Below are positions 18,058 through 33,043 of a stretch of DNA of 64,000 nucleotides, piece by piece. Origin of the DNA: Litorivivens lipolytica (GTDB taxonomy: Bacteria > Pseudomonadota > Gammaproteobacteria > Pseudomonadales > Spongiibacteraceae); NCBI RefSeq assembly GCF_014191715.1, contig NZ_JACHWY010000002.1, forward strand, positions 62,001-126,000. The letters are read 5' to 3'. The position numbers and the translations under genes were made by a program. Every line of letters starts with the position of its first letter. Within the stretch, counting starts at the first letter, position 1. The notes beneath the pieces were generated by a model, which saw only the letters and a program-made list of their open reading frames with translations, made no database searches and was not told the origin of the DNA.

Positions 18058-19866
18058 ATGTTTCTTAATCCTCAGGATATTGTGGTCATAACGGGCGCCG
18101 CTTCGGGTATGGGGCGCGCCTACGCCATTGCGTTTGCTCGTTTGAATTGTCGGTTGGCACTGTGCGATATCGATGAAAACGGCTTGGATGAAACCTGTAA
18201 TCAGGTCGCAGCTTTTTCTAAAGAGGCCTGTCTGCGTGCGGTGGTCAACATCGCTGAAGTCGATTCGGTTAATGCCTTTGCCCAGCGGGTAAACCGTGAA
18301 CTGGGGCCAGCCCGGGTTGTTATAAACAATGCCGGGATAGAAGGTAGCGCCCAGCCCTCTTGGCAAACACCGTTGGCGATGTATGAAAAGGTCATGGCGG
18401 TGAATTATTTCGGCGTGGTGCATGGTTGCCGTTCCTTCCTGCCGCAACTGCTGACATACCAGCGCGCATGGCTGGTTAATATATCGAGCGTTTTTGGATT
18501 GATCGGCACGCCCAATCATACGGACTACTGCGGCAGTAAATTTGCGGTGCGCGGTTATACTGAAGCCCTGCGAGCAGAATTAAACGGTAGCGGTGTGCAC
18601 GTCATGCTCGTGCATCCCGGGGGTGTGAATACCCGGATCGCGCGCCAGGATATAAGCCGCCCCTTTGCTGAACAATTTCTTAAATCTACGCCTGAGCAGG
18701 TCGTTAAGCAGGTGCTGCGCGCTATGGCAAACGGCAGGGCGCGAGTAGTGTGTGGTCATAACAGCTGGAAGACGGCGTTGGCTGCTCGCCTGCTACCACT
18801 TGGCTTGCTTAGCAGACTGATTTGGCGAGAACTGTCTGGCTTTATTGATAGCAAAAACTATCCCCCCCCGACAGGCGCTCTCCAACGAGATTCAAGCGGC
18901 GACGGCCCAAAGATTGAACAGGAAAAAACCATGAAAAAGATGCTAATACTCCTCGGCGGTTTGATTATTGCGGCGGTGATCTGGAGCATTGCAAGTTATC
19001 CGCGCATAGGATCGCTCGTTTATGAAGTAGGAGTAGCTACAGAGGCTGCGGTGTACGGCTTCGAGAAGAAACAGCAGCCACTGGGCGAACTCGATATGGT
19101 GTATTACGCTGGTGGTAATACGGATGGCCCAACCATCGTTATGCTCCACGGCTACAGTGCCGACAAAATGGTTTGGCTGCGTTTTGCTCGTCACCTAACC
19201 GATAGCTATCACATTTTGATCCCGGATTTGGCAGGTCATGGTGAGACCGGTTTTCAAGCTGATTGGGATTACACGATGGCGGCGCAGGCTGAGCGTGTGG
19301 TTGCACTGCTCGACGCCTTGAATATCGAGCAAGCACATATCATCGGCAACTCAATGGGCGGGTTTATCAGTGGCCAGTTTGCGTTGGATTATCCGCAGCG
19401 TACCCTCAGTATTGCTCCAGTTGACCCTGCCGGTGTCACTACTCCCGAGCCAAGCGACATGGAGAAAATGCTCGCTGAAGGCCGCAATCCCTTCCTGATC
19501 GAAAACGGTGAACAATTCGCCGAGTTTTATCAGATGACCATGGCCAAGCCGCCGTGGCTACCGGGCATGGTGCTTGATGCTATGGCCGAAGATTACCGTG
19601 TTCTTGCCCCACAACTGGAAGCCATTTTTGAGGATATTCAGCGCTCGCCACTGTTGGCGGATCGCCTAGGTGAGCTGCAGGTGCCGGCCCTTATTTTATG
19701 GGGCGATCAGGATGCGCTGATTCACGTCAGTGGTGCTGAGCGTTGGCATGCGCTTATACCCGATAGTCAGCTGACCGTGTGGGAAGGTATTGGGCATATG
19801 CCGATGCTGGAAATTCCTGAAGCGAGTGCGCAGCGCTATCGAGCGTTTTTAGCGCGCGGAGAGTAA
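18058..19866 (+). CDS. Short-chain dehydrogenase read through in frame into an alpha/beta hydrolase
   Basis: As written, one 602-codon frame covers two enzymes. Residues 1-280 are an NAD(P)-dependent short-chain dehydrogenase: TGAASGMGRAYA nucleotide motif, NNAG, NISSVFG, and YCGSK with the catalytic Tyr and Lys. The frame then passes a run of eight C (18862-18869) and a poor linker, and enters a complete hydrolase with its own membrane anchor. With seven C the dehydrogenase would instead end at TGA 18932-18934, overlapping the hydrolase ATG at 18931 as ATGA, the standard coupled arrangement. I therefore suspect a frameshift, real or from sequencing, rather than a true fusion. GAGGGAG precedes the start. 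Likely role: alcohol-ketone interconversion beside the monooxygenase. Confidence 0.8.
   Translation: MFLNPQDIVVITGAASGMGRAYAIAFARLNCRLALCDIDENGLDETCNQVAAFSKEACLRAVVNIAEVDSVNAFAQRVNRELGPARVVINNAGIEGSAQPSWQTPLAMYEKVMAVNYFGVVHGCRSFLPQLLTYQRAWLVNISSVFGLIGTPNHTDYCGSKFAVRGYTEALRAELNGSGVHVMLVHPGGVNTRIARQDISRPFAEQFLKSTPEQVVKQVLRAMANGRARVVCGHNSWKTALAARLLPLGLLSRLIWRELSGFIDSKNYPPPTGALQRDSSGDGPKIEQEKTMKKMLILLGGLIIAAVIWSIASYPRIGSLVYEVGVATEAAVYGFEKKQQPLGELDMVYYAGGNTDGPTIVMLHGYSADKMVWLRFARHLTDSYHILIPDLAGHGETGFQADWDYTMAAQAERVVALLDALNIEQAHIIGNSMGGFISGQFALDYPQRTLSIAPVDPAGVTTPEPSDMEKMLAEGRNPFLIENGEQFAEFYQMTMAKPPWLPGMVLDAMAEDYRVLAPQLEAIFEDIQRSPLLADRLGELQVPALILWGDQDALIHVSGAERWHALIPDSQLTVWEGIGHMPMLEIPEASAQRYRAFLARGE
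18862..18869 (+). repeat. C8 homopolymer at the dehydrogenase/hydrolase junction
   Basis: Eight consecutive C lie at the end of the dehydrogenase domain. Eight keeps the frame open into the hydrolase; seven ends it at the ATGA overlap 65 bases later; nine ends it at TGA near 18915. Such runs are prone to polymerase slippage and to base-calling errors. Confidence 0.9.
18931..19866 (+). CDS. Alpha/beta hydrolase with N-terminal membrane anchor (probable separate gene)
   Basis: 311 residues from ATG 18931, preceded by AGGAAAAAACC. A hydrophobic segment (MLILLGGLIIAAVIWSIA) would anchor or export the enzyme. The hydrolase core shows the oxyanion motif MLHGYS, the nucleophile elbow GNSMGG with Ser141, an acid residue in LWGDQDALI and His in GIGHMPMLE. 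It resembles lipases and esterases of the monoglyceride-lipase/LipA type. Next to the monooxygenase it would cleave the ester product; the substrate is inferred only from context. In the sequence as given it shares a frame with the dehydrogenase upstream. Confidence 0.82.
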   Translation: MKKMLILLGGLIIAAVIWSIASYPRIGSLVYEVGVATEAAVYGFEKKQQPLGELDMVYYAGGNTDGPTIVMLHGYSADKMVWLRFARHLTDSYHILIPDLAGHGETGFQADWDYTMAAQAERVVALLDALNIEQAHIIGNSMGGFISGQFALDYPQRTLSIAPVDPAGVTTPEPSDMEKMLAEGRNPFLIENGEQFAEFYQMTMAKPPWLPGMVLDAMAEDYRVLAPQLEAIFEDIQRSPLLADRLGELQVPALILWGDQDALIHVSGAERWHALIPDSQLTVWEGIGHMPMLEIPEASAQRYRAFLARGE

Positions 19867-19890: not shown

Positions 19891-20346
19891 TTAGTAGGTG
19901 ACGGTAACGGAGATCGTATCCGAATAATTGCCCGCTGCAGAATTTTGACCAGCAGGAATCCGGCCGTAAACCACATGGTCGATGGGTAGAAGTAAAACAC
20001 CAATCGCACCCGGTACGGTTGCGGTGCCCCCGTTGCCATCTCCCCATACCGTGAGGTAGGTCGGATCCGTGTACAGGTTGTAGTTCAAGCTGTTTGCGCC
20101 ACTACTCATCTTTCTCGGAGCGAAATTGCCTGCTCCACCAGCGGAAAGGGCAATGCTGTAGCCCATCGAAAGTGTGCAGCTTACCGATACGGAACCAACG
20201 CTATCCACTGACAGGCCAGATAGCGGGTCGTAGTCCCCAAACGCAACGCTATTTGCACTCGCGCTGCATTGGGCCGCGGCCGGCGCGGCAGAAAAGGCGA
20301 TGCATAGACCGACCACAAGGGTGCGCCAAGATGTGACTACAGGCAC
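19891..20346 (-). CDS. Spore coat U domain pilus subunit (distal gene of chaperone-usher operon)
   Basis: 151 residues with a signal peptide (cut near APAAA). It has the SCPU fold pattern: an early Cys in QCSASANSVAFGDYDP, SVSVSCTL, VYGRIPAGQ, and the C-terminal donor-type strand SDTISVTVTY. In the Csu system of Acinetobacter the gene after the usher is the two-domain tip adhesin CsuE; here the product has only one domain. It overlaps the usher gene by ten bases. It is either the tip or a second shaft subunit. Confidence 0.82.
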   Translation of the reverse strand: MPVVTSWRTLVVGLCIAFSAAPAAAQCSASANSVAFGDYDPLSGLSVDSVGSVSVSCTLSMGYSIALSAGGAGNFAPRKMSSGANSLNYNLYTDPTYLTVWGDGNGGTATVPGAIGVLLLPIDHVVYGRIPAGQNSAAGNYSDTISVTVTY

Positions 20347-23228
20347 GTGATGTCTCCGAGGTCAGGCAGCGGCTCGGATGCTGCGGGAACATTAAGTCTA
20401 AAGCGGCAGAATGTATCTTGCCACCACGCCTGCATTTCATGATCTCCGGGCGGGCTCTCAATATAGGCTTGACCCGCTATCCCGGTTTGTGACTTCTCGC
20501 CTGTGGCGGGATTCAGAAACTGAGTTCCAGAAGGGGCGGGGTTGCCTGAGTTGTCGAGTAAGCGAAAGCCTACCCAGCGAGCCTTTTTGATCGAAAAGCG
20601 TATTTTTACGCCCTGCCTGTAAGCGGGCACAGCGATTTGCTCTAGCGAGGCGACTTGGATGTCGAGCGGTAGTTTTGTATCACCCAAACGAATTCGGTTG
20701 CGTTGGTAATCTCTCAAACCGGGCACAATGGCTTTCCCGCTGGCGTTTGTTCTGGCGAGCAGCTGATTGTCTCTGTAGATGGAAGCATCTGGCAAGTCGG
20801 GTACTTCGACTAACGCAAAGCTCTGATTAAGACGTTGTGTTAGGTAAGGGCGGCTACCGAAGAAAGCCACGCCGCCGTCCACTGCGGTTCGGTACTCGGT
20901 TTGTGTGTCGAGATGGCTGGACTGTACCTGGATATGGCTGATAGGGTTTCGCCAGTTAACGCCAGCTTCGATGCGGTCGCTGTTGCCATCTTCATGAGCC
21001 AGCTGGTATCCAAATCCATTGCCGGCTGGCAAGTTCTTGCGTAACTGTGTTCTATACCGCGAGGTAGATGCTTGCCGTCGCGCGTTGCTGGTGATTGATG
21101 TGCTTCGGCCCAGGGGTATGGATATCGACGCACTGGCACTGCGTTCCAGAACATCGTCCAGTGGCTCTAAATAGCTTAGGCTGAAATGCGCGTTGTACGG
21201 TAGGCTGAGGGAATATTGCAGGGTTGCAAATTCATTGTCCGCCTCATTGCGTTTTCGGCGCTGAATATGACTCAGCGAAAGCCCACCATATTTACCCATG
21301 CCCACAGAAGCAAAGCCTGTAGATTCAAAAGCATCTAACTCGCTCTCAGGGCTCGTGCCAAGTTGCTGAAAGTGACGTGAGCGCCAGGTGCCTCTGGCAC
21401 CGAAGCTAAATTGCCGGGCTTGGCGTCGCACGCCCACGGATGTGAGTGTCCCGGAAAGACTGTCTGCGTCTCGGCTACCCGCTAAAGCGAAATTAAACTC
21501 TGCGACAGCGGGCCACACCACCGTTGCCGCTGTACCGATCGAATTCACCTCGCTGCTGAGTTCTGCTCGGACTTCTCCTGTATACCAATGGCTAAAGCCG
21601 TAGCGGTGTGTTCCGCTGGCAAAATCGGTTGCATAGTCATTGCTTTCGCGGGTGAAGTTGTTGCGAATAACCCCGAGCTCATAGCTGTAGTCATGTAGCC
21701 CGGGTTTTAAGAGTTGGGAGCTGGCATAGAATGGTCGGGTAACGACGGACTCGCGTCCAAAAAGGTCTCGGGTGACGATGCGCATTTCACCGGCCCCTGT
21801 TACCGTGGGCACTTCATTGATCGTGAATGCTCCCGGCTCGATACTGGAGCTGGCGCGCCGCGAGTTATCAATAAAAATATCAACTGTGGATGGTACAACC
21901 GACTCGCCGGTGATTAGCTGCGTGGGGAAAGTGATAAATCCAGGCTGGGTTGAAAAGTTAGTTCCCCATCGTAGCCCGCCAAAGCGAGTTGGACGCCCCC
22001 AGGCACCCCCTTCGTTTAGCGTGTCGCCAATGATGAGTGAGCGCATTTTCTCGGGCCAGTCAACGCGCAGGTTCGTTTCAAGACGAATATTCTCGCGATC
22101 GTCATCCGTGATATTTCTGATGAGGTGTTGGCTTGAAAGAAACCCTCGGCCCCAAAATGCTCCCATTTCGAACTGGCCACTAACCTGATCTTTTTCATCG
22201 GTGTGAGAGCTGAACAAGGCGTAGTTCAATAGAGCGCCGCGTTGACTAAAGTCGGGTTCTACGAGGTAGTCCTCATTACCCGACAGTTCGCTGGGAATAA
22301 ACGCATCGGAGCGCGCATAGAGCGCTAAGGCTTGCCGTTTGGAATCAAAAACGGGGATGACGTTGTTCAAATCATCAATGGCGTATAAGTCGGGAGATGA
22401 GCTTTGGGCCTCGGGTGTTTGGAGTTTGCTCTCTGCAAACGTTGTCTCATCCAGAAGGAATTGCTGCTCATCATCCGCAAAAACTTTTACCAGGCGAGGC
22501 TGCTGTGATTCGTTTACCTGCAACTCAACCCAGGTTTCTTCAGCTTGTTCTGTGTTGGGGCGCGCACGGGTATCAATGCTGAGTAAGCTCCATTGGGGGT
22601 CTATCGCGACTTTGTACGGCCAGAGGTTGTCAATTTCCAGATAGAGTGTGCCATCAATCACGAGTGGAGCAAGCTCAGGTAAGGGCAGCTCAAGGGCGAG
22701 CAGATCGTCGCGACTGATTAACCAGCGATCAAGATGTTGCAGCAGAGTCAGTTCTCGCTCGGCGTCCTGTTGGTTGAGGATGAGTCGGAGCTTTACGCTG
22801 TCAACGTCCCGGCTGCCTAGCGGTATGGACTTGCGAGGGCCTTGAAAAGGCGCAAATTCAGGCGTTTGAGGGCTGTTGGGCTTAGTGGCTTGCGTCGAAA
22901 CGAGTGTGAGTGCTCCCTTCGACAGGCTGATGCGATAGCCGTTTATTGAGCGAAGCGGCAGGAAGGGATACCCGTCAACCTGCACTTGCCCGTCAAGGTC
23001 GATCGGTAGCCCTGCTGACAGCATATCAACCGCGCGAAGGTAGACGTCACTATCGCCGTGGAGTATTGCCCGAATATCCGTTCGGACCGTGCGGCCATCA
23101 ATGATGAGATCAATTTTTTGCGGCGACAGAGTGCTCGTTTCTACCCAGGGCAGTTCGTTCCAATCGGCTTGAGCGCTGAAACCCAATAACAGCGAAGTAA
23201 AGATTAGGAGATTAAGCGAGCGGGCCAT
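20337..23228 (-). CDS. Archaic chaperone-usher pathway outer-membrane usher with doubled N-terminal domain
   Basis: 963 residues with a signal peptide (cut near GFSAQA, residue 21). It forms the outer-membrane barrel that takes subunits from the chaperone and assembles the pilus. The barrel/plug part follows the usher pattern (GTLNEGGAWGRPTRFGG-like region; IDNSRRASSSIEPGAFTI plug; YRQGVKIRFSI C-terminal part). Two similar modules precede it: residues 39-118 and 145-225, both running from a beta strand through a DML/DLL and GLPI/LPLP turn, an IDG/VDG, a Tyr-Lys/Arg strand, to TxAxxPN. I read them as tandem usher N-terminal domains, which would account for much of the extra length over typical archaic ushers. 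Confidence 0.88.
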   Translation of the reverse strand: MARSLNLLIFTSLLLGFSAQADWNELPWVETSTLSPQKIDLIIDGRTVRTDIRAILHGDSDVYLRAVDMLSAGLPIDLDGQVQVDGYPFLPLRSINGYRISLSKGALTLVSTQATKPNSPQTPEFAPFQGPRKSIPLGSRDVDSVKLRLILNQQDAERELTLLQHLDRWLISRDDLLALELPLPELAPLVIDGTLYLEIDNLWPYKVAIDPQWSLLSIDTRARPNTEQAEETWVELQVNESQQPRLVKVFADDEQQFLLDETTFAESKLQTPEAQSSSPDLYAIDDLNNVIPVFDSKRQALALYARSDAFIPSELSGNEDYLVEPDFSQRGALLNYALFSSHTDEKDQVSGQFEMGAFWGRGFLSSQHLIRNITDDDRENIRLETNLRVDWPEKMRSLIIGDTLNEGGAWGRPTRFGGLRWGTNFSTQPGFITFPTQLITGESVVPSTVDIFIDNSRRASSSIEPGAFTINEVPTVTGAGEMRIVTRDLFGRESVVTRPFYASSQLLKPGLHDYSYELGVIRNNFTRESNDYATDFASGTHRYGFSHWYTGEVRAELSSEVNSIGTAATVVWPAVAEFNFALAGSRDADSLSGTLTSVGVRRQARQFSFGARGTWRSRHFQQLGTSPESELDAFESTGFASVGMGKYGGLSLSHIQRRKRNEADNEFATLQYSLSLPYNAHFSLSYLEPLDDVLERSASASISIPLGRSTSITSNARRQASTSRYRTQLRKNLPAGNGFGYQLAHEDGNSDRIEAGVNWRNPISHIQVQSSHLDTQTEYRTAVDGGVAFFGSRPYLTQRLNQSFALVEVPDLPDASIYRDNQLLARTNASGKAIVPGLRDYQRNRIRLGDTKLPLDIQVASLEQIAVPAYRQGVKIRFSIKKARWVGFRLLDNSGNPAPSGTQFLNPATGEKSQTGIAGQAYIESPPGDHEMQAWWQDTFCRFRLNVPAASEPLPDLGDITCL

Positions 23229-23246
23229 GCGTTGCCCCGAGCGCCA

Positions 23247-23954
23247 CTATTGGACAAGCGCACGAGTGCGCCGCTCTAGTGGACCATTTGCGACGATAAT
23301 TTCAACTTCCTTACCGACGCTCGGGGCCGTGTTTGACTCAATAAGCCAGGAGATCTGTGAGCCGGGTAGCACATACTGGAGATCGGATTCGCTGCCTATT
23401 TCCTTGGAGTTTTTTAGTAGCCGCCAAGAGGTGAGCTTATCGTGCCCGTTGCCCGTGTTTGCAACCGACAGTTTAACTTTTCCATCGCGTTGGCGCGTTA
23501 CTGACCATTTCAAATCCGCGGCAGTAGGATATTCAGGGCGGACAAATACCGGGAGGCTCATATGGAGTGCAAACTTGAGTCCGCCGCGGGGTGTAGAGAC
23601 GCCGGGAATTTCCTGTAGCAGGAGGCGATAGGCCTGCTCTTCGGGATGCGATTGATATGCGCGCAGGCCAACGCGCACGGTTTGTTCTTCGCCTGGCGCA
23701 ATGGTGAATGTCGGTGGCACCGCGATGATATCGCGCGTTTCACGCAGTTCTTCTGCGCCTTTGTTTTGCACCCATTTTTTTGTCGCCACCTGCAATGTAA
23801 CCGGGGTGGATTCTCTATTGCGCACGGTCAACGTTGTCGCGGGTGTGCTTTCCGAGAGCGCGATGGTTACGGGGCGAACTGAATACGAGCCAGAAAATGT
23901 CGTGGCTGAAACCAGCAGGGCGAAAGCAGTGACGATCCATGTCTTGCACGGCAT
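23247..23954 (-). CDS. Periplasmic pilus chaperone (archaic chaperone-usher family)
   Basis: 235 residues with a signal peptide. The immunoglobulin-like chaperone pattern is clear: YSVRPVTIALSES near the N-terminus, LTVRNRESTPVTLQV, a conserved APGEEQTVRVGLR block, and YRLLLQEIPG. It lies between the first pilin and the usher, 18 bases from the latter, in the order seen in Csu-type operons. It would hold SCPU subunits in the periplasm and hand them to the usher. Confidence 0.88.
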   Translation of the reverse strand: MPCKTWIVTAFALLVSATTFSGSYSVRPVTIALSESTPATTLTVRNRESTPVTLQVATKKWVQNKGAEELRETRDIIAVPPTFTIAPGEEQTVRVGLRAYQSHPEEQAYRLLLQEIPGVSTPRGGLKFALHMSLPVFVRPEYPTAADLKWSVTRQRDGKVKLSVANTGNGHDKLTSWRLLKNSKEIGSESDLQYVLPGSQISWLIESNTAPSVGKEVEIIVANGPLERRTRALVQ

Positions 23955-23967
23955 AGCAGAACGTAGC

Positions 23968-24468
23968 TCAATAATTTAACGTGACATTTATCGTGTCGGA
24001 ATAACTGCCGGTTTGCGTTTCCTGTTGCCCGGAAGGAATACGTCCATAGACAACAACCGGGACACCCAAACCCGTACCAATGCCGGTTACATCGTTTGTA
24101 CCTGCGGTTTCGCCCCACACAGAGGTTCGCAAAGTATCGCTATACAGTTGATAGGATAGATAGTTGGAACTGCCGTCTGTCATACGTCGTGTGCTGACGG
24201 TGCCATCGCTGCTGCTGCCGCCATCATCGAGAAGTAGTGAGTAACTGGTGCCAAGTGAACAGGTGACGGTAATGGAGCCTACGGCATCGATATTCAAGTT
24301 GTTGACGGGTTCGACATTGCCAAAAGCTAGGTTATTGGCGCTGACATCGCATGAGTCCACCACCGTTGCAGTAACATTAAAAGTGGTCGTTGCTTGCGCC
24401 AGGGCATGACTGCTGTAGAACGCAGAAAGCAGACAAATAAAGGCGGCGAGTTTTGATGAGTAGCACAT
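23968..24468 (-). CDS. Spore coat U domain protein, probable major pilin
   Basis: 166 residues, signal peptide cut near SHALA. SCPU features: DSCDVSANNLAFGNVEPV, SITVTCSLG, VYGRIPSG and a C-terminal strand SDTINVTLNY. It is the first gene of the minus-strand operon, the place of CsuA/B, so it is the likely shaft subunit. AGGAG lies eight bases before the ATG. Unlike Csu, only one pilin precedes the chaperone; equivalents of CsuA and CsuB are missing. Confidence 0.85.
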   Translation of the reverse strand: MCYSSKLAAFICLLSAFYSSHALAQATTTFNVTATVVDSCDVSANNLAFGNVEPVNNLNIDAVGSITVTCSLGTSYSLLLDDGGSSSDGTVSTRRMTDGSSNYLSYQLYSDTLRTSVWGETAGTNDVTGIGTGLGVPVVVYGRIPSGQQETQTGSYSDTINVTLNY

Positions 24469-25408: not shown

Positions 25409-28400
25409 ATGAAAAAACGCTTTCACTCCGCACCGTATAGGCTAACCGCACTCTGCGTATCGCTTTCTTTGGCTTCTCCATTTGTGATGGCTGGCCCCCT
25501 TGGCAACGCAGCTCGCTCTACGGGCTTGCTTCAACCGGTTGGTCGGGCTGTCGGGCTTGATCCGGTGCAGGTTATAGCGCCGGTTGATAATCTTTTAGAG
25601 GCGGGAGCGGAAAGTGCGGGGCTTTCCCCTGATGCGCTCCAAATGACGCCGGAACAGCTCGACTCGCTGAATGCCTTGGATGATGGCTTTGAGCGATCTC
25701 CGGTTGAGCCAATTACTCGCCCGCTGGGTGATAGTATTGATCCGCTTGTTGAAGCGCTTGATCGCACCCTTGATCCGGTCACTGATCCGGTCGATGACGC
25801 AGTGCTTGAGCCTGTATTGCAGGCTGTCTCTCCGGTGTCTGACCCACTGCTGAATGTTGTGCGGCCGGTTACCAATCCGGTCGACGGTATTACTGCTGAC
25901 CTCACCGGTGGCAGCATCGAGGACTCACTGACAAACACCGATGATAACGACGCCGATGGCAATGGTGTGGTTAACGATCTGATTGGTGGTAATCGCAAGC
26001 AAAACAGCGGCCAGGAATCGGGAGAAGCGTCCCCGCTACCGGCAGTGTCTAACGGTGTGGGGAAAGCGCTGGGCCGTGTTACTCGCCCTCTGGATCGTGC
26101 TCTTGATCCGGTAACCGACCCCATTGACGAAACGGTAGTCGCTCCCATTCTGGACGCGCTTGCGCCAGTTACTGAACCCCTCTTGGAAGCGATTGAGCCG
26201 GCCACGGATCCGGTTGATGGCACGCTGGCAGATCTTACCGGCGGCAGCGTCGAGGACGCGTTAACTAATAGCGATGACAATACCGCTGACGGCGATGGTG
26301 CGATCAACGACCTTTTGGGTAGCAGCGAGGAGCCTGAAGGCGAAGATCCGACCGATTTGGGCCCCGTATTTGGTCCAGTCATTGAGTTGGTTGGAGATAT
26401 CGCTAATCCGGTTAGCGAACAAACGGTTTTACTGCTTGATGGCGGTGTAGAACAGTCTCCCATCGCTCCACTGTCAGAGCCTCTGGGCGATATTCTATCG
26501 CCATTAGTGAGTACGCTTGATACCGCGCTGGATCCAGTGACTGACCCAGTTGATGATGTTGTTTTGGCCCCCGTTCTTGAAACCGTTTCTCCAATTTCTG
26601 ATCCGTTGCTAGAAGTCTTTGAGCCAATTACCAACCCTGTTGATGGTCTGACTGCAGATTTGACGGGTGGCAGTGTTGAAGATGCCCTGACGAATAGCGA
26701 TGACAATACTGGTGACGGTGATGGCCTGGTAAATGATCTGCTCAGTGGTAGCGATTCTGGTAACGGTTCCGACGGCGAAACTGGCAATGAAGGCGGTTTG
26801 ATTGGCGATCTTGCTGATAGCCCCGTGTTTGGCCCCATCGTTGAGGTAGCGGATTTAACGGTCAACCCGGTACTTGAGCCGGTGATTGAAGTGGTCGATA
26901 CAACCCTCGATCCGGTCACCGACCCGATTGATGATCAGGTAATCGCGCCGGTACTGGATGCCGTGGCTCCGGTTACTGATCCTGTGCTGGACGCGGCTGA
27001 TCCGATTATCGAGCCAGTTGATGATGCACTTGCCGCTGTTGGTGCCGGTTCTCTGAGCGATGCCGTGACTAACGTGGATGAGAATCCGACTGATGGGGAT
27101 GGTCTGGTAAATGATGCGCTGGGTGGTGCTGCGCCGGGTTCCGATGGCTCAGATGGCAGCGGCGGTGATGGTACGGTCATCGACGGCGTGACTGAAAACC
27201 CGCTTGTTAGCCCTATCGTTGAGGTTGTGGATTCGACGGTGAACCCAGTACTTGAGCCGGTGATTGAAGTGGTCGATACCACCCTCGATCCGGTCACCGA
27301 CCCGATTGATGATCAGGTGATCGCGCCGGTACTGGATGCCGTGGCTCCGGTTACTGATCCTGTGCTGGACGCGGCTGATCCGATTATCGAGCCAGTTGAT
27401 GATGCACTTGCCGCTGTTGGTGCCGGTTCTCTGAGCGATGCCGTGACTAACGTGGATGAGAATCCGACTGATGGGGATGGTCTGATAAATGATGCGCTGG
27501 GTGGTGCTGCGCCGGGTTCTGATGGAGCTGATGGCGGTTCGGAGGAAGGGGGCAGCTCAACACCGGGCGGCCTGCTGGACTCTGTTGTTGAAGTCGTCGA
27601 CACCACTCTCGACCCGATTACCGATCCCATCGATGATCAATTGTTGGAGCCCATTCTCGATGTTGCCTCACCGGTTATTGAGCCGATACTGGATGCCGCT
27701 GATCCGGTTATCGAGCCTGTCGACGATGTGCTGGCTGATATTGGCGCAGGCTCGGTAGGCGATGCTCTCACCAATATTGATGAAAATACGGCTGACGGCG
27801 ATGGTTTGGTGAATGACCTACTGGGCGGAAGTCCGGGGAGTGTCGTTGACGACACGGTGGAATCACCAATCGACGCGATTACTGATCCACTGGGTGAAAT
27901 AACTCAACCGATTGTTGATGTGGTTGATAACCTGCTCGATCCCGTGACTGACATTGTGGATGAACAAGTGCTGGAGCCAGTGCTGGATGTGGTTGCGCCG
28001 GTCACTGACCCGGTTCTCGACGCGCTTGACCCGATTACTTCACCGGTCGATTCAATCGTTGGTGATGTAACCGGCGGCAGCCTGGATGATGCCTTGACCA
28101 ACCTCGATCAGAATACGACCGATGGCAATGGCCTGGTGAATGATGTGCTGGGTGGCGACAGTGGCGCAGGTAGTGGTGGTAATGGCGGTAGTTCCAACGA
28201 TGACGACATTGAGCCCGCGGATCAGCCGGCACTATTGGCACTGACCAATGCGCTGTTGGCGGGAGAGTTTGCGGACGATGATCGCGATGGTGTGGCCAAT
28301 GCCTCGGACAAGTGTCCGCGCACCAGACCCGGAGCCAAGGTGCTGCGTAATGGCTGTGAAGTGACGGGCGTCGTCGCACTGATGCTCGAGGCGGTAAACT

Positions 28401-28735
28401 TCGATCACAATGAAGCTGTTTTGCTGCCGGAAGCTCGCGAGCGTTTGCTGCGAAATGTCGAAGTGCTGCAGAATCTGCCGTTCGCCAAGGTCGAAGTGGC
28501 TGGCCATACTGATGCAACCGGTGAGTCTGACTACAATGCCCGTTTGTCCCAGGCACGAGCAGAAGTCGTGGTTAATTTTTTGATCGCGCAAGGGATTGAC
28601 GCATCGAAGCTAGTCATTCGCGGCTACGGTGAACAAAAGCCAGTTGCAGACAACGAGAGCGACAGCGGCCGCTATAAGAATCGTCGCGCGGAGCTGATCA
28701 TTCGCGATGAGGTTGCGCTAAAAGAAGAAAACTGA
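25409..28735 (+). CDS. Large acidic tandem-repeat envelope protein with TSP3-like and OmpA-like C-terminus
   Basis: 1108 residues from ATG 25409, chosen because a signal peptide starts there (MKKRFHSAP to FVMA); ATG 25379 would add ten residues. Residues about 110-920 hold seven repeats of 108-144 residues. Each has a Val/Pro/Asp-rich part (LDPVTDPIDD, APVLDAVAPVTDPVL) and ends in an acidic loop such as DENPTDGDGLVND that resembles a calcium-binding loop. A TSP3-like DDDRDGVANASDKCP lies near residue 955. From about residue 987 there is an OmpA-like peptidoglycan-binding domain (VEVAGHTDATGES, RLSQARAEVVVNFL, RGYGEQKPVADN, YKNRRAELII). It is probably anchored to the wall with the repeats as a stalk. 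A TpsB-like barrel gene follows 45 bases later. I know no named homologue. Confidence 0.85.
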   Translation: MKKRFHSAPYRLTALCVSLSLASPFVMAGPLGNAARSTGLLQPVGRAVGLDPVQVIAPVDNLLEAGAESAGLSPDALQMTPEQLDSLNALDDGFERSPVEPITRPLGDSIDPLVEALDRTLDPVTDPVDDAVLEPVLQAVSPVSDPLLNVVRPVTNPVDGITADLTGGSIEDSLTNTDDNDADGNGVVNDLIGGNRKQNSGQESGEASPLPAVSNGVGKALGRVTRPLDRALDPVTDPIDETVVAPILDALAPVTEPLLEAIEPATDPVDGTLADLTGGSVEDALTNSDDNTADGDGAINDLLGSSEEPEGEDPTDLGPVFGPVIELVGDIANPVSEQTVLLLDGGVEQSPIAPLSEPLGDILSPLVSTLDTALDPVTDPVDDVVLAPVLETVSPISDPLLEVFEPITNPVDGLTADLTGGSVEDALTNSDDNTGDGDGLVNDLLSGSDSGNGSDGETGNEGGLIGDLADSPVFGPIVEVADLTVNPVLEPVIEVVDTTLDPVTDPIDDQVIAPVLDAVAPVTDPVLDAADPIIEPVDDALAAVGAGSLSDAVTNVDENPTDGDGLVNDALGGAAPGSDGSDGSGGDGTVIDGVTENPLVSPIVEVVDSTVNPVLEPVIEVVDTTLDPVTDPIDDQVIAPVLDAVAPVTDPVLDAADPIIEPVDDALAAVGAGSLSDAVTNVDENPTDGDGLINDALGGAAPGSDGADGGSEEGGSSTPGGLLDSVVEVVDTTLDPITDPIDDQLLEPILDVASPVIEPILDAADPVIEPVDDVLADIGAGSVGDALTNIDENTADGDGLVNDLLGGSPGSVVDDTVESPIDAITDPLGEITQPIVDVVDNLLDPVTDIVDEQVLEPVLDVVAPVTDPVLDALDPITSPVDSIVGDVTGGSLDDALTNLDQNTTDGNGLVNDVLGGDSGAGSGGNGGSSNDDDIEPADQPALLALTNALLAGEFADDDRDGVANASDKCPRTRPGAKVLRNGCEVTGVVALMLEAVNFDHNEAVLLPEARERLLRNVEVLQNLPFAKVEVAGHTDATGESDYNARLSQARAEVVVNFLIAQGIDASKLVIRGYGEQKPVADNESDSGRYKNRRAELIIRDEVALKEEN
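26871..27141 (+). repeat. Near-identical internal duplication, copy 1
   Basis: About 271 bases nearly identical to 27249-27519, offset 378 bases (126 codons). The few differences seen are single bases, several silent. It covers the repeat unit ending in DGDGLVNDALGG (fourth unit). Confidence 0.85.
27249..27519 (+). repeat. Near-identical internal duplication, copy 2
   Basis: Second copy of the unit at 26871-27141, encoding the fifth protein repeat (ending DGDGLINDALGG). Other repeats in the gene have diverged far more at the DNA level, so this pair is a recent duplication or is kept alike by gene conversion. Confidence 0.85.
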
Positions 28736-28780
28736 CAGTCGCGTTAACAGCGACGTCTATTCATAGTTTGGGGGCCATTG

Positions 28781-30445
28781 ATGGCGATAGATCTACCACC
28801 CGCGCTGCCGCCACAAGCGGCGGACAGCGCATTAATACGTGAAACCAAAGCAGCTGACTCCAGTTATATTGGCGGCAAACTCGGTAATGTTGAGGTGCGG
28901 GTATTCGGCAACCGTTCGTTAGATCAGGAAACGATCCTGTCGGTAATCGCCAATGCCAGCGCGCCTTCAGAAGTCGTTAAAGACCTGACCCGTGCCTACT
29001 ACGATGCGGGTTTTTTATGGGTGAAACTCTTCTACTACCGTGTTGAAGATATTGTCGGCGTCATCGTCAGTCAGTCGGTAGTCAGTGAGGTGCGCGGTGA
29101 TGAGCGCATCACACCGCATTTCGAATCGCTGGTCGGCGATGCCGATCCCACGCTTGCAGAGTACGATACAGCGCGTGTATTGGCGGCACTGAAGTCTGAG
29201 CGCATTGGTGAGAATTACACAGTCACTTACGAAGATCTCGGCAATCAGCAGCTTGCGGTGGTCCTCGAATCGTCGGCTGATGAGGATTACGACAACACCG
29301 ACTATATCTTTGAACTGAACAACAAGGGCAGCCGTTATCTCGGTCGCTACTTTGGGCTTGCAGGCCTACAACACCGTACCGATAGCGGTACTAAATGGTC
29401 TTTCGCCTATCAGCGAGCCTTTATTGAGTGGGGCGAATCGCTCGATGGTGAGAAGCTTAATCAGTACAGCCTGAGTGTTGATCACCCATTCAGTTTCGGG
29501 CTTTATGGGATTGATCTGTCCTATGTGGAGTACGAGCGCGATCCGGAAGGCCAGCTGGTTCAGCCGGGTTCGTGCAGCCTTCTTTTCTTTTGTACCGGGC
29601 CGACCGTTAGTAGTACAAGGCTCGATGTACAGGCGGAGATACAGCGCTTCGGTGTGCGCGGTCAGCAGGTGATCTACAGCGATACTCAACAGCGACTGCG
29701 GCTCAAAGAGCGGGTCGAGTATGTCGATTCCTACATTGAAGAAAATAATTCCGACACGATTTTGATCGACGAGCGTTACCCCGTTGCGGAAGTTGGTGTG
29801 TTGTACAACTCACGCTTTCAGAATGACAGGTCGTCGTTCAATGCCGGCTTGGATGCGCGCGTCGGCCTGTCGAGTTCCGGGACGCTGGACACTTACGATG
29901 AATATCGCCGCGCATTTCTGGCGCAGAACCCCTCTGCCAGTGAGGCTCCCGACGTTGCACCCGCGGCGCGCAGCGGTGAGTTTGTCACGCTGCAGCCCTC
30001 GGTGAACTATCAGTATGCGCTGTCACCGCGCACGGTATTTTCTGCAACGCTCAAAGGGCAATATGCCAATGAGCAGGTGCCTGAGCAGGAGCAGTTTGTG
30101 CTAGGTGGTATGGATTCGCTCGGCGCCTATCTGCCGGGTATCCTTATCGGTGATGAAGGTTTTCACCTGAAGCTGGAAGTCAGTCGCTCCCTCAGCTGGA
30201 AAGGGGTTACCTTCCGCCCCGCCTTATTTATTGAGCAGGGACAGACCTGGTACAACAACACCGATGGTGATCTTGGTGATGCTCAGAAAGTCGCGGATGC
30301 AGGTTTTGCTTTGAGCATGAATTTCGGTCATGGGCTGGAAAGCCACTGGGTGGTGGCCAGAAATGTATCGGATGATGTGATTGATGAAGCCTTGCTCGAA
30401 GCCAGCGAAGCGGATTTCTTCTGGCGATTGCGTTTAACGCTATAA
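28781..30445 (+). CDS. FhaC/ShlB (TpsB)-like POTRA-barrel outer-membrane protein
   Basis: 554 residues from ATG 28781; a TTG just upstream adds one residue. The order fits a two-partner secretion transporter: a proline-rich N-terminal stretch (LPPALPPQAADS), POTRA-like regions (VEVRVFGNRSL, VIANASAPSEVVKDLTRAYYDAGF, VSEVRGDERI), then a beta-barrel with YFGLAGLQHRTDSG and a C-terminal aromatic end (FFWRLRLTL). TpsB proteins export a partner across the outer membrane. The upstream gene, 45 bases away on the same strand, is the obvious partner, yet it lacks a TPS secretion domain. No signal peptide is visible, and in-frame codons upstream reach a stop at 28745, which is odd for a barrel protein. 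Confidence 0.78.
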   Translation: MAIDLPPALPPQAADSALIRETKAADSSYIGGKLGNVEVRVFGNRSLDQETILSVIANASAPSEVVKDLTRAYYDAGFLWVKLFYYRVEDIVGVIVSQSVVSEVRGDERITPHFESLVGDADPTLAEYDTARVLAALKSERIGENYTVTYEDLGNQQLAVVLESSADEDYDNTDYIFELNNKGSRYLGRYFGLAGLQHRTDSGTKWSFAYQRAFIEWGESLDGEKLNQYSLSVDHPFSFGLYGIDLSYVEYERDPEGQLVQPGSCSLLFFCTGPTVSSTRLDVQAEIQRFGVRGQQVIYSDTQQRLRLKERVEYVDSYIEENNSDTILIDERYPVAEVGVLYNSRFQNDRSSFNAGLDARVGLSSSGTLDTYDEYRRAFLAQNPSASEAPDVAPAARSGEFVTLQPSVNYQYALSPRTVFSATLKGQYANEQVPEQEQFVLGGMDSLGAYLPGILIGDEGFHLKLEVSRSLSWKGVTFRPALFIEQGQTWYNNTDGDLGDAQKVADAGFALSMNFGHGLESHWVVARNVSDDVIDEALLEASEADFFWRLRLTL

Positions 30446-30472
30446 CGAGTAAAGCTAAGCCGGACAGCAACT

Positions 30473-30500
30473 AAAAAGCCGCCCCATAGGGCGGCTTTTT
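30473..30500. terminator. Bidirectional rho-independent terminator
   Basis: AAAAAGCCGCCC, a four-base loop, and GGGCGGCTTTTT form a perfect 12-base stem with A and T tails. It serves both the TpsB-like gene ending at 30445 (+) and the mechanosensitive channel ending at 30520 (-). Confidence 0.9.
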
Positions 30501-30519
30501 AGTTTATTAAGGAGTGAAC

Positions 30520-31449
30520 TCAGGCGGCTTTGTCCTGCATCTGGATCGGCAGAACCGGCGCGTCGCCCCCTTTGCCTTCGCCTGCGTACAGGGTCATGTG
30601 CGGGAAGGGGATTTCGATATTCGCCGCGTCGAAACGTTTCTTCAGGCGACGGTTGAATTCGCGCAATACCATCCACTGGCTGCCAGGCAGTGTCTTCATG
30701 CGGCAACGAATGATGACGGCTGAGTCCGCAAAGCTGGTGATGCCGTGAACTTCCATGTCCTCGGTGATTTCGCTGGCAAACGTTGCGTCGTTGCGAAGTT
30801 CGGCGCCGACTTCTTCTATGATGTCGAACACTTGATCCGTGTCCTCGCGGTAGGCTACGCCGACATTGGCCAGAGCGTAACCGTAATCCTTGGTCATATT
30901 CGACACAGTCGTGACATTGCCATTGGGAATGATGTGCAGGGTGCCGTCGAGAGCGCGCATGCGGACTGTACGCAGACCCAGTGAAACAACTTCGCCTGAC
31001 AGGCCGCCTGCTTCAACAATGTCGCCCACGCGAATCTGGTCTTCGGCCAGCAGGAAAAAACCCGTGATGACATCGCGTACCAGGTTTTGTGCACCGAAAC
31101 CGATGGCTAGGCCACCGAGGCCGGCAACGGCAATGATGGGGGCGATATCTACACCTACCTCTTTGAGTACCATCATGCCGGCGGCAAGAAACAGGGCGGC
31201 CCAAATCAGTGTGCCGAGAATCCCGGTCAGGGTATCGGCGCGCTTAACGCGTTCAGCGTCTTGATCCTTGCCGGCAATGCCGCGATGAACACGATTCAGC
31301 AAGCGTCGGCTCACTGTCAGCGCGATCCAGGCGCCAAAAATGATCAGTATGATTTGCAGGCCGGATGTCGCGAGCCAGGTCATAGCGTTCTCTGTCAGCG
31401 AAATAAGCACTTCGCGACTGCGGGCCGTGAAGTTGACTAGACCTTCCAT
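30520..31449 (-). CDS. MscS-family mechanosensitive channel
   Basis: 309 residues. Three N-terminal membrane helices end in the pore helix AVAGLGGLAIGFGAQNLVRD, the MscS hallmark, followed by the beta domain (IRVGDIVEAGGLSGEVVSLGLR, HIIPNGNVTTVSN) and a C-terminal alpha/beta part. It relieves turgor in osmotic downshock. It is monocistronic, with the shared terminator at 30473-30500 behind it. A second, shorter MscS homologue is at 39898. Confidence 0.9.
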   Translation of the reverse strand: MEGLVNFTARSREVLISLTENAMTWLATSGLQIILIIFGAWIALTVSRRLLNRVHRGIAGKDQDAERVKRADTLTGILGTLIWAALFLAAGMMVLKEVGVDIAPIIAVAGLGGLAIGFGAQNLVRDVITGFFLLAEDQIRVGDIVEAGGLSGEVVSLGLRTVRMRALDGTLHIIPNGNVTTVSNMTKDYGYALANVGVAYREDTDQVFDIIEEVGAELRNDATFASEITEDMEVHGITSFADSAVIIRCRMKTLPGSQWMVLREFNRRLKKRFDAANIEIPFPHMTLYAGEGKGGDAPVLPIQMQDKAA

Positions 31450-31594: not shown

Positions 31595-33043
31595 ATGCGA
31601 TTTATCACCCTTTTACTAACAGGTTTTTTTGCGCTGGTGTGTACGGCAGAGGCGGAAGAAAAGTCTGTTCGCTGGCAGGGCGCAGAACTTGGCGGCAACA
31701 AGATTGGTTATCGCCAGCTCAGTCGCGAGACGCAGGGCGACCGGGTTATAAGTACCGAAACGCTGGTGATCACGCTCCAGCAACCGGGTGAATCGTCCCG
31801 TACGTCTACCATCACATTGCGCTACGAAGACGACCTCAATGGGAAACCTCTCTCACTGCACAAAACGGTGCGGTCACAGGCGGTCAATCAGACGCTGACT
31901 GCCAAGGTTAGCGGTGATGTTTTACAGGTTCATCGCAGTGATGGAAGCCGTACCGAATCCTCACACATTGCCATACCGGAAAATTTTCTTCTGCCTGAGG
32001 GGGTTCGGCGGGCGCTTTCGGAAAAAAACGGGGAGCGGCGCCAGCTCACCTATAGTCTCTTCAACTTTTCAACGCTCGCTTTTGAAACGGTTCGTCTGGA
32101 AGGCGAACAAGGTGTCGGGCAATTTGCCTGGGTTTTTAGCTACCGTCAGGGTAAGGATGCGAAGCCGACGCAATGGTTTACCAATGAGGCGTTTGAGGTA
32201 GTGCGAGAAGAAAGTGTCACGGGTGGCGAAATACTGGTGCTCTACGATTGTAGCGAGGATTGCGCACTGGCACCGTTCTCGCCAACGACCCATGTTTATC
32301 GCCAATTACTGCGAGCGCCGGTGCGTATTCCTGCGGCGGCGCTGCGCGGTCATATCCGCTACCAGCTCGTCGGTGAAACCACGCTGATGCCGCCGGTGAC
32401 TGCGGAGCAGCAAGTGCAGAAAAGCGAGCGCGGCTGGCAGTTGGATGTCTGTTCGTCGTGTGGTGATGATGCGAGTCCGACTGAAGAAATACTGACACAG
32501 GCGAAACAAGCCAATTACTGGATAGCAGCGGATGACCCGGAGATAAAACGTCTGGCGGCTGAACACGGCGCGGCAGAAGATATGACTGAGGCGATGGCAC
32601 AGTTGACCCGTTTTGTGGGGCTGCATATGAAGGCGCAACCGGATTACGCGGGGTTTGCAACCGCGCGCGAGGCCTTGGCGTCGGGCACGGGCGATTGTAC
32701 TGAGCATGCGCTGTTGCTGGCTGCGCTGGCGCGCGCTGCGGGTTTTCCTGCACGCATTGCGATTGGTCTCGCCTACAATACCGAGCGCTTTCTCGGTCGC
32801 AAATATGTGTTTGTGCCCCATGCCTGGGTGCAGGTGTGGGACGGCAATGCATGGCGCAGCTACGATAGTGGCTTGGGTGAGTTCCATGCGGGTTATCTGA
32901 CGCTGGCCCTGAGCTACAGTGGCGAAGTTTCTCACTTCACCCGGGTCAACGCGCAACTGCATGCCTTGCAGATTGTGTCGGCCGCACTAGTGCAATCCAA
33001 TACCGATAGAAGCAAAGCCAGCAACGAGGCAACAGCGCCATGA
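31595..33043 (+). CDS. Exported transglutaminase-like cysteine protease/peptidase
   Basis: 482 residues with a signal peptide (cut near CTAEA). The transglutaminase core lies in the C-terminal third: GDCTEHALLLAALARAAG with Cys368, VPHAWVQVW with His409, and YDSGLGE with Asp424 give the catalytic triad. The N-terminal 300 residues are beta-rich with two cysteine pairs (LYDCSEDC, CSSC). In bacteria such exported proteins act as peptidases or in envelope remodelling; the target is unknown. It overlaps the DUF3301 gene by four bases (ATGA), so the two likely act together. Confidence 0.82.
   Translation: MRFITLLLTGFFALVCTAEAEEKSVRWQGAELGGNKIGYRQLSRETQGDRVISTETLVITLQQPGESSRTSTITLRYEDDLNGKPLSLHKTVRSQAVNQTLTAKVSGDVLQVHRSDGSRTESSHIAIPENFLLPEGVRRALSEKNGERRQLTYSLFNFSTLAFETVRLEGEQGVGQFAWVFSYRQGKDAKPTQWFTNEAFEVVREESVTGGEILVLYDCSEDCALAPFSPTTHVYRQLLRAPVRIPAAALRGHIRYQLVGETTLMPPVTAEQQVQKSERGWQLDVCSSCGDDASPTEEILTQAKQANYWIAADDPEIKRLAAEHGAAEDMTEAMAQLTRFVGLHMKAQPDYAGFATAREALASGTGDCTEHALLLAALARAAGFPARIAIGLAYNTERFLGRKYVFVPHAWVQVWDGNAWRSYDSGLGEFHAGYLTLALSYSGEVSHFTRVNAQLHALQIVSAALVQSNTDRSKASNEATAP

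Follow-up and report, generated by a model that had tools for sequence, protein, structure and literature searches.

A TpsB-like barrel protein without a signal peptide forms a dedicated gene pair with a repeat/OmpA protein in Litorivivens lipolytica and other Spongiibacteraceae

In a 64,000-nt stretch of the Litorivivens lipolytica genome (contig NZ_JACHWY010000002.1, positions 62,001 to 126,000; here called the window), a gene for a repeat protein with an OmpA-type domain is followed after 45 bases by a gene for a TpsB-like POTRA-barrel protein, and the barrel protein has no signal peptide. Outer-membrane beta-barrels are generally held to require a signal peptide for crossing the inner membrane. 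The evidence strongly supports the pair as a real, dedicated and vertically inherited envelope module. Its sequence features are most likely explained by a divergent translocon, similar to type Vb, that serves wall-anchored repeat proteins and reaches the outer membrane independently of a signal peptide, an explanation for which our belief and our doubt are about balanced. The coordinates given in an earlier model-made reading of the sequence (the first-pass annotation) were borne out, and the main elements are as follows.

25409 to 28735, plus strand: repeat/OmpA partner protein of 1108 residues, with an N-terminal signal peptide and a PF00691 domain.
28781 to 30445, plus strand: TpsB-like POTRA-barrel protein of 554 residues, without a signal peptide.
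28781 to 28813, plus strand: conserved N-terminus of the barrel protein, MAIDLPPALPP, starting with ATG in 49 of 49 sites.

A signal peptide was absent at all 49 barrel start sites examined. The family start is M-(A/P)-I-D-(L/F)-P-P-x-x-P-P at these sites, with two exceptions (one P7S and one P10Q). Conservation across the family protein is highest in residues 1-11, which rank first among its 544 windows of 11 residues. Within the first 35 residues the median of the best 10-residue hydropathy was 1.2, with no hydrophobic core; clear signal-peptide-like segments were found in almost every other complete TpsB-type frame that was sampled within the class. At every site an in-frame stop is found 0-33 codons before the ATG, in seven cases as the immediately preceding codon, and a Shine-Dalgarno core precedes 46 of the 49 starts (the window gene is among the three without a recognisable core). 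Family conservation places the window start at ATG 28781 and not at the TTG 3 bases earlier. That partner and barrel are joined by fusion, frameshift or read-through was rejected on the in-frame stops, the differing frames and the Shine-Dalgarno sequences.

The constraint on this N-terminus acts at the protein level, because its codons vary synonymously while its residues remain constant; the motif was accordingly rejected as a DNA or RNA element. Within the source genome the coding motif is limited to four barrels. Since these four paralogues have very different partners and share near-identical first 11 residues, the ligand of the segment is less likely to be the partner than an internal site or a component common to all four. 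Residues 1-30 have a negative net charge in 43 of 46 members (mean -2). In the AlphaFold2 model the N-terminus is predicted with fair confidence (predicted local distance difference test, pLDDT, 77-87), and a helix follows the Pro-rich start at residues 16-25.

The rest of the barrel protein carries the marks of an outer-membrane protein, with one replaced motif pair.

28868 to 29278, plus strand: two POTRA-like domains, residues 30-166 (AlphaFold2 secondary structure, Foldseek).
29297 to 30439, plus strand: 16-stranded Omp85/TpsB-type barrel (AlphaFold2, Foldseek).
29573 to 29593, plus strand: Cys265...Cys271, a likely disulfide in predicted surface loop L3; the protein has no other cysteines.
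30119 to 30139, plus strand: LGAYLPG, in place of the VRG(F/Y) of Omp85 L6 (alignment of members).
30227 to 30241, plus strand: FIEQG (FxExG), in place of (F/G)xDxG, the partner of the lost L6 arginine.

The POTRA-barrel identity proposed earlier was confirmed by a match to PF03865 (ShlB, E 8e-13) and by the TpsB fold of the AlphaFold2 model (mean pLDDT 91, predicted template-modelling score 0.83), which has two POTRA-like domains and 16 strands. The top Foldseek matches were CdiB (1.4e-24) and FhaC, followed by BamA and TamA. Pfam POTRA_2 was not matched by the barrel protein, and a sequence-only search of the PDB with the family profile gave no match. The last residue is aromatic in 45 of the 46 relatives counted (37 Phe, 6 Tyr and 2 Trp); the single Leu belongs to the window protein. 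Exactly two cysteines, both between strands 5 and 6, occur in 43 of 46 members, the exceptions being L088 and L090 (none) and L091 (two elsewhere). Cysteines that come as a lone pair and never in odd numbers are consistent with a disulfide formed in an oxidising compartment, and the strand order of the model would place the strand 5-6 loop at the cell surface. At the level of sequence, the aromatic C-terminal residue and the two-cysteine surface loop argue for export of the barrel.

In the FhaC-type L6, the arginine of VRGY/F bridges the Asp of F/GxDxG, and the motif is reported to be essential for activity (PMC5422565, two-partner secretion review). All 46 members of the present family lack this arginine: their L6 reads xxA(Y/W)LPG, in which P and G never vary, and the Glu of FxExG replaces the Asp without exception (46/46). 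The altered L6 is common to all members without a signal peptide, and aligned relatives with signal peptides keep V/I-R-G/A. Sampled across 1383 genomes, the members without a signal peptide fall into one group with support of 100/99 and a long stem (midpoint-rooted tree, 38 sequences). This group of TpsB proteins is, provisionally, an undescribed clade. A signal peptide is likewise missing from the distant members of the clade (families f130 and f225), and their N-termini are different (MPVxVADVPPEAP; MFAMSALPPPSP). One of them, G797 (f225; L141 7493-9040), lies approximately 157 bp upstream of a gene for an exoprotein whose N-terminal domain is of the filamentous-haemagglutinin type (TIGR01901 match above cut-off). 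Thus, a two-partner arrangement is compatible with both the altered L6 and the absence of a signal peptide. The segment L141 7493-11687 may represent an intermediate form, linking the classical two-partner type to the OmpA-linked system. The two-partner secretion (TPS) domain model PF05860 was not found in 21 family genomes, and control genomes gave no match either.

The pairing of the two genes is widespread and specific. The source genome (3.49 Mb) has four barrels, each preceded by an OmpA-domain gene at a distance of 21-82 bp, and the other three are 33-36% identical to the window barrel. Two to five barrels per genome were present in 21 of 21 Spongiibacteraceae genomes. A scan of the genome collection gave 45 named loci, nearly all from Spongiibacteraceae (Zhongshania, Spongiibacter, Neomelitea), and OmpA-domain neighbours were scored by phmmer search. 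An OmpA-domain open reading frame lies 16-127 bp upstream of the barrel in 43 of these loci, the exceptions being L088, where the contig is truncated, and L091, where the OmpA gene is nearby on the opposite strand. Homologues of the two genes occurring mostly apart, which the first-pass annotation had named as contrary to its proposal, is the opposite of what was found. Distances among 46 OmpA domains were correlated with those among their barrels (r = 0.74), and none of 2000 within-genome partner shuffles reached this value (mean r = 0.14, maximum 0.33). The paralogous pairs, the 21 genomes, the 43 loci and this co-evolution lend strong support to the earlier claim of a dedicated envelope system with two components. 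A decayed gene was rejected, no listed copy across 21 genomes having internal stops; there was no plasmid match, and the neighbours of paralogue groups are conserved. Comparison of the locus neighbourhoods showed no extra export-helper gene adjoining all copies.

The partner protein is built from a signal peptide, a repeat region and an OmpA-type domain.

25409 to 25492, plus strand: predicted Sec-type signal peptide, MKKRFHSAPYRLTALCVSLSLASPFVMA (from sequence).
25769 to 28150, plus strand: seven repeats rich in Asp, Pro and Val, with a core of approximately 75 residues, LDPVTDPVDD...DGDGLVNDLLGG.
28274 to 28357, plus strand: single degenerate TSP3-like segment, DDDRDGVANASDKCPRTRPGAKVLRNGC, at about residues 956-983.
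28400 to 28684, plus strand: OmpA-type peptidoglycan-binding domain, PF00691, residues 998-1092.

Most orthologous partners also have a signal peptide. Seven repeats were counted, as before, with starts at residues 121, 232, 374, 500, 626, 734 and 843; two of them form a recent 378-bp tandem duplication (26832-27525, 96% matching). Copy number differs strongly among orthologues, and partner lengths range from about 445 to 1500 residues; wide variation in repeat number is a common trait of length-variable surface proteins. The OmpA-type anchor matches PF00691 with E 3.2e-21 (76 bits vs a curated cut-off of 27.2) and is the only part of the partner modelled confidently by AlphaFold2, the repeats having pLDDT <50. 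Pfam found no TPS domain in the partner, in agreement with the earlier reading, and no match indicating an N-terminal 8-stranded barrel of the OprF/OmpA type. The TSP3-like segment described earlier stands as one degenerate unit, with a fuller CxDxDxDGVCDxxDxC in orthologues, and had no Pfam TSP_3 match. The DGDG loops described as calcium-like matched no EF-hand or dockerin model in Pfam, so calcium binding by them stays putative.

Barrel and partner are separate genes at every locus examined, and the partner itself occurs in modular variants. The repeats and the OmpA anchor are fused in one chain in the window. At L005 (source genome) and L070, a separate repeat protein with a signal peptide is followed by a short OmpA protein and then by the barrel; L090, from another gammaproteobacterial family, has a repeat protein, an OmpA protein with a TSP3 segment and the barrel. 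The order at L142 (family f130) is barrel, repeat protein and an OmpA protein with an 8-stranded barrel domain, and repeat and OmpA are likewise separate genes at L091. Many partners are short (270-350 residues). The earlier interpretation held for the dedicated system and the TpsB-like fold, and had overlooked the absent signal peptide, the replaced VRG(F/Y), the paralogues and the split-gene loci. Flanking proteins with a LuxR-type C-terminal sequence, possibly dedicated regulators, were seen at L091 (237-914 and 5089-6114) and L090 (7589-8530). Secreted proteins with short glycine/asparagine repeats (e.g., GDNSGNGGLLGAGVLN) and no Pfam match were found at L091 (971-2782), L142 (8088-9176) and L090 (3427-4728), and some Spongiibacteraceae partners carry repeats of a similar kind in fusion with OmpA.

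The proposed mechanism would begin with export of the repeat/OmpA protein by Sec through its own signal peptide. The barrel, which lacks a classical signal peptide, would cross the inner membrane by another route, with the invariant (M)A-I-D-L-P-P-x-x-P-P start as the candidate recognition element. BAM would then insert the barrel via its C-terminal beta-signal, and the surface disulfide would form. Finally, the POTRA domains of the barrel may engage the partner, so that the N-terminal repeats pass through the barrel and reach the surface, with the C-terminal OmpA domain remaining on peptidoglycan, and the repeats would be displayed on a wall-anchored stalk. That the Omp85 clade without signal peptides uses an export signal or route not described before, of which AIDLPPxxPP is the mark, and acts as a translocon for wall-anchored repeat proteins instead of TPS exoproteins, is a proposal we make tentatively and consider somewhat more doubtful than not.

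Several points weigh against the translocon. The absence of a signal peptide was judged from hydropathy, start-site conservation and in-frame stops; barrel localisation and transport rest on sequence and model evidence; and the literature searched, with most subscription journals outside it, held no earlier case of an Omp85 barrel that lacks a signal peptide. Conservation of the N-terminal motif may be intramolecular (a linker on POTRA2 or in the pore) and not related to export, and loss of VRGY could mean that translocation was lost or altered. The main rival is a purely structural, periplasm-spanning tether, in which the barrel is an anchor or pore pinned to peptidoglycan by its OmpA partner, the repeats are a spacer and nothing is translocated. 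The replacement of the VRG(F/Y) needed for TPS secretion, the lack of a TPS domain in the partner, the many short partners with little to display and the normally periplasmic action of OmpA domains all agree with such a tether, a possibility that we nevertheless regard as rather unlikely. The range of repeat-region lengths among orthologues exceeds what a fixed periplasmic width would lead one to expect, separate repeat proteins with signal peptides co-occur in several lineages and a clade member adjoins a TPS exoprotein. The separate-gene versions and the TPS-linked member favour a translocase over a periplasmic bridge, and we favour, on the sequences compared, a translocon that would pass the repeats outward while the OmpA domain holds the C-terminus on the wall.

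Other rivals concern the barrel itself. Sec might export it by information in its mature part, the invariant N-terminus being a POTRA2 linker, as in FhaC, or a pore plug; this departs from the preferred explanation in the export step only, and we give it a minor share of our confidence. Negative N-terminal charge is taken as favourable for export, and the acidic residues 1-30 and the pLDDT of the N-terminus are in line with this possibility. We know of no outer-membrane protein of wild-type cells that is exported in this manner, which speaks against it. A precedent for the linker is the periplasmic linker of FhaC, which lies on POTRA2 and is required for secretion (PMC5422565). A barrel that stays in the cytoplasm with another role there would explain the missing signal peptide and is very improbable, given the confidently modelled outer-membrane fold, the aromatic C-terminal residue, the single pair of cysteines predicted to lie in a surface loop, and co-evolution with a partner that has a signal peptide of its own. 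Least probable is an ordinary two-partner pair whose barrel signal peptide was overlooked because of an upstream start, a frameshift or a fusion to the partner. In the window, partner and barrel do share one reading frame, but paralogue frames differ, stops shortly precede the ATG at every locus, Shine-Dalgarno spacing is right and the invariant residues begin exactly at the ATG, so the 49 start sites largely contradict this rival.

The system resembles the TpsB systems of type Vb (CdiB, FhaC, ShlB) in its two POTRA domains, 16 strands, long L6, ShlB Pfam match, mostly aromatic C-terminal residue and adjacent cognate partner gene with a signal peptide. It differs from them in the barrel without a signal peptide, the invariant MAIDLPPxxPP start, xxA(Y/W)LPG for VRG(F/Y), FxExG for (F/G)xDxG and, except beside G797, a repeat/OmpA partner without a TPS domain. 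As in OmpA/OprF, the C-terminal OmpA domain of the partner is preceded by a TSP3-like Asp/Cys segment, whereas acidic repeats replace the N-terminal 8-stranded barrel in the window partner; the distant three-gene version at L142 retains an ordinary OmpA barrel. Inverse autotransporters (intimin/invasin, type Ve) also bring together a passenger, peptidoglycan binding and a barrel in the outer membrane, but intimin does so in a single polypeptide whose barrel has 12 strands, and here the chains are separate and the barrel is of the Omp85 type. PlpD (type Vd) is likewise a TpsB-related POTRA-barrel with a non-TPS passenger, but is a single chain comprising the patatin passenger, the POTRA and the barrel.

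The strong terminator reported after the pair was confirmed (16-bp stem, 4-nt loop, RNAfold -26.3 kcal/mol).

30469 to 30504, plus strand: intrinsic terminator hairpin at the end of the pair, which the convergent gene could use too.

A consensus terminator scan did not list this hairpin, its T run being probably absorbed by the stem. The convergent gene (30520-31449) encodes an MscS-like channel and lies between the pair and a secreted protein with a transglutaminase-like segment (31595-33043, plus strand). Directly upstream of the pair, on the minus strand, is a compact cluster resembling a Csu-type chaperone-usher pilus (19891-24468), with small pilin-like proteins (19891-20346 and 23968-24468), a usher-like protein of 963 residues (20337-23228) and a chaperone-like protein (23247-23954). 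A 602-residue frame at 18058-19866 (plus strand) reads as a short-chain dehydrogenase and, after it with no stop between them, an alpha/beta hydrolase; the hydrolase half has its own N-terminal membrane-like segment, and the frame is either a fusion or two genes sharing a frame by chance.

A conserved, paralogous and co-evolving clade that lacks a signal peptide and keeps the other marks of outer-membrane proteins makes signal peptide-independent export of such proteins testable in culturable Zhongshania and Spongiibacter. The clade also shows that the VRG(F/Y) lock of Omp85 proteins is replaceable. If the translocon explanation is true, type V-like secretion would gain a class of wall-anchored cargo.

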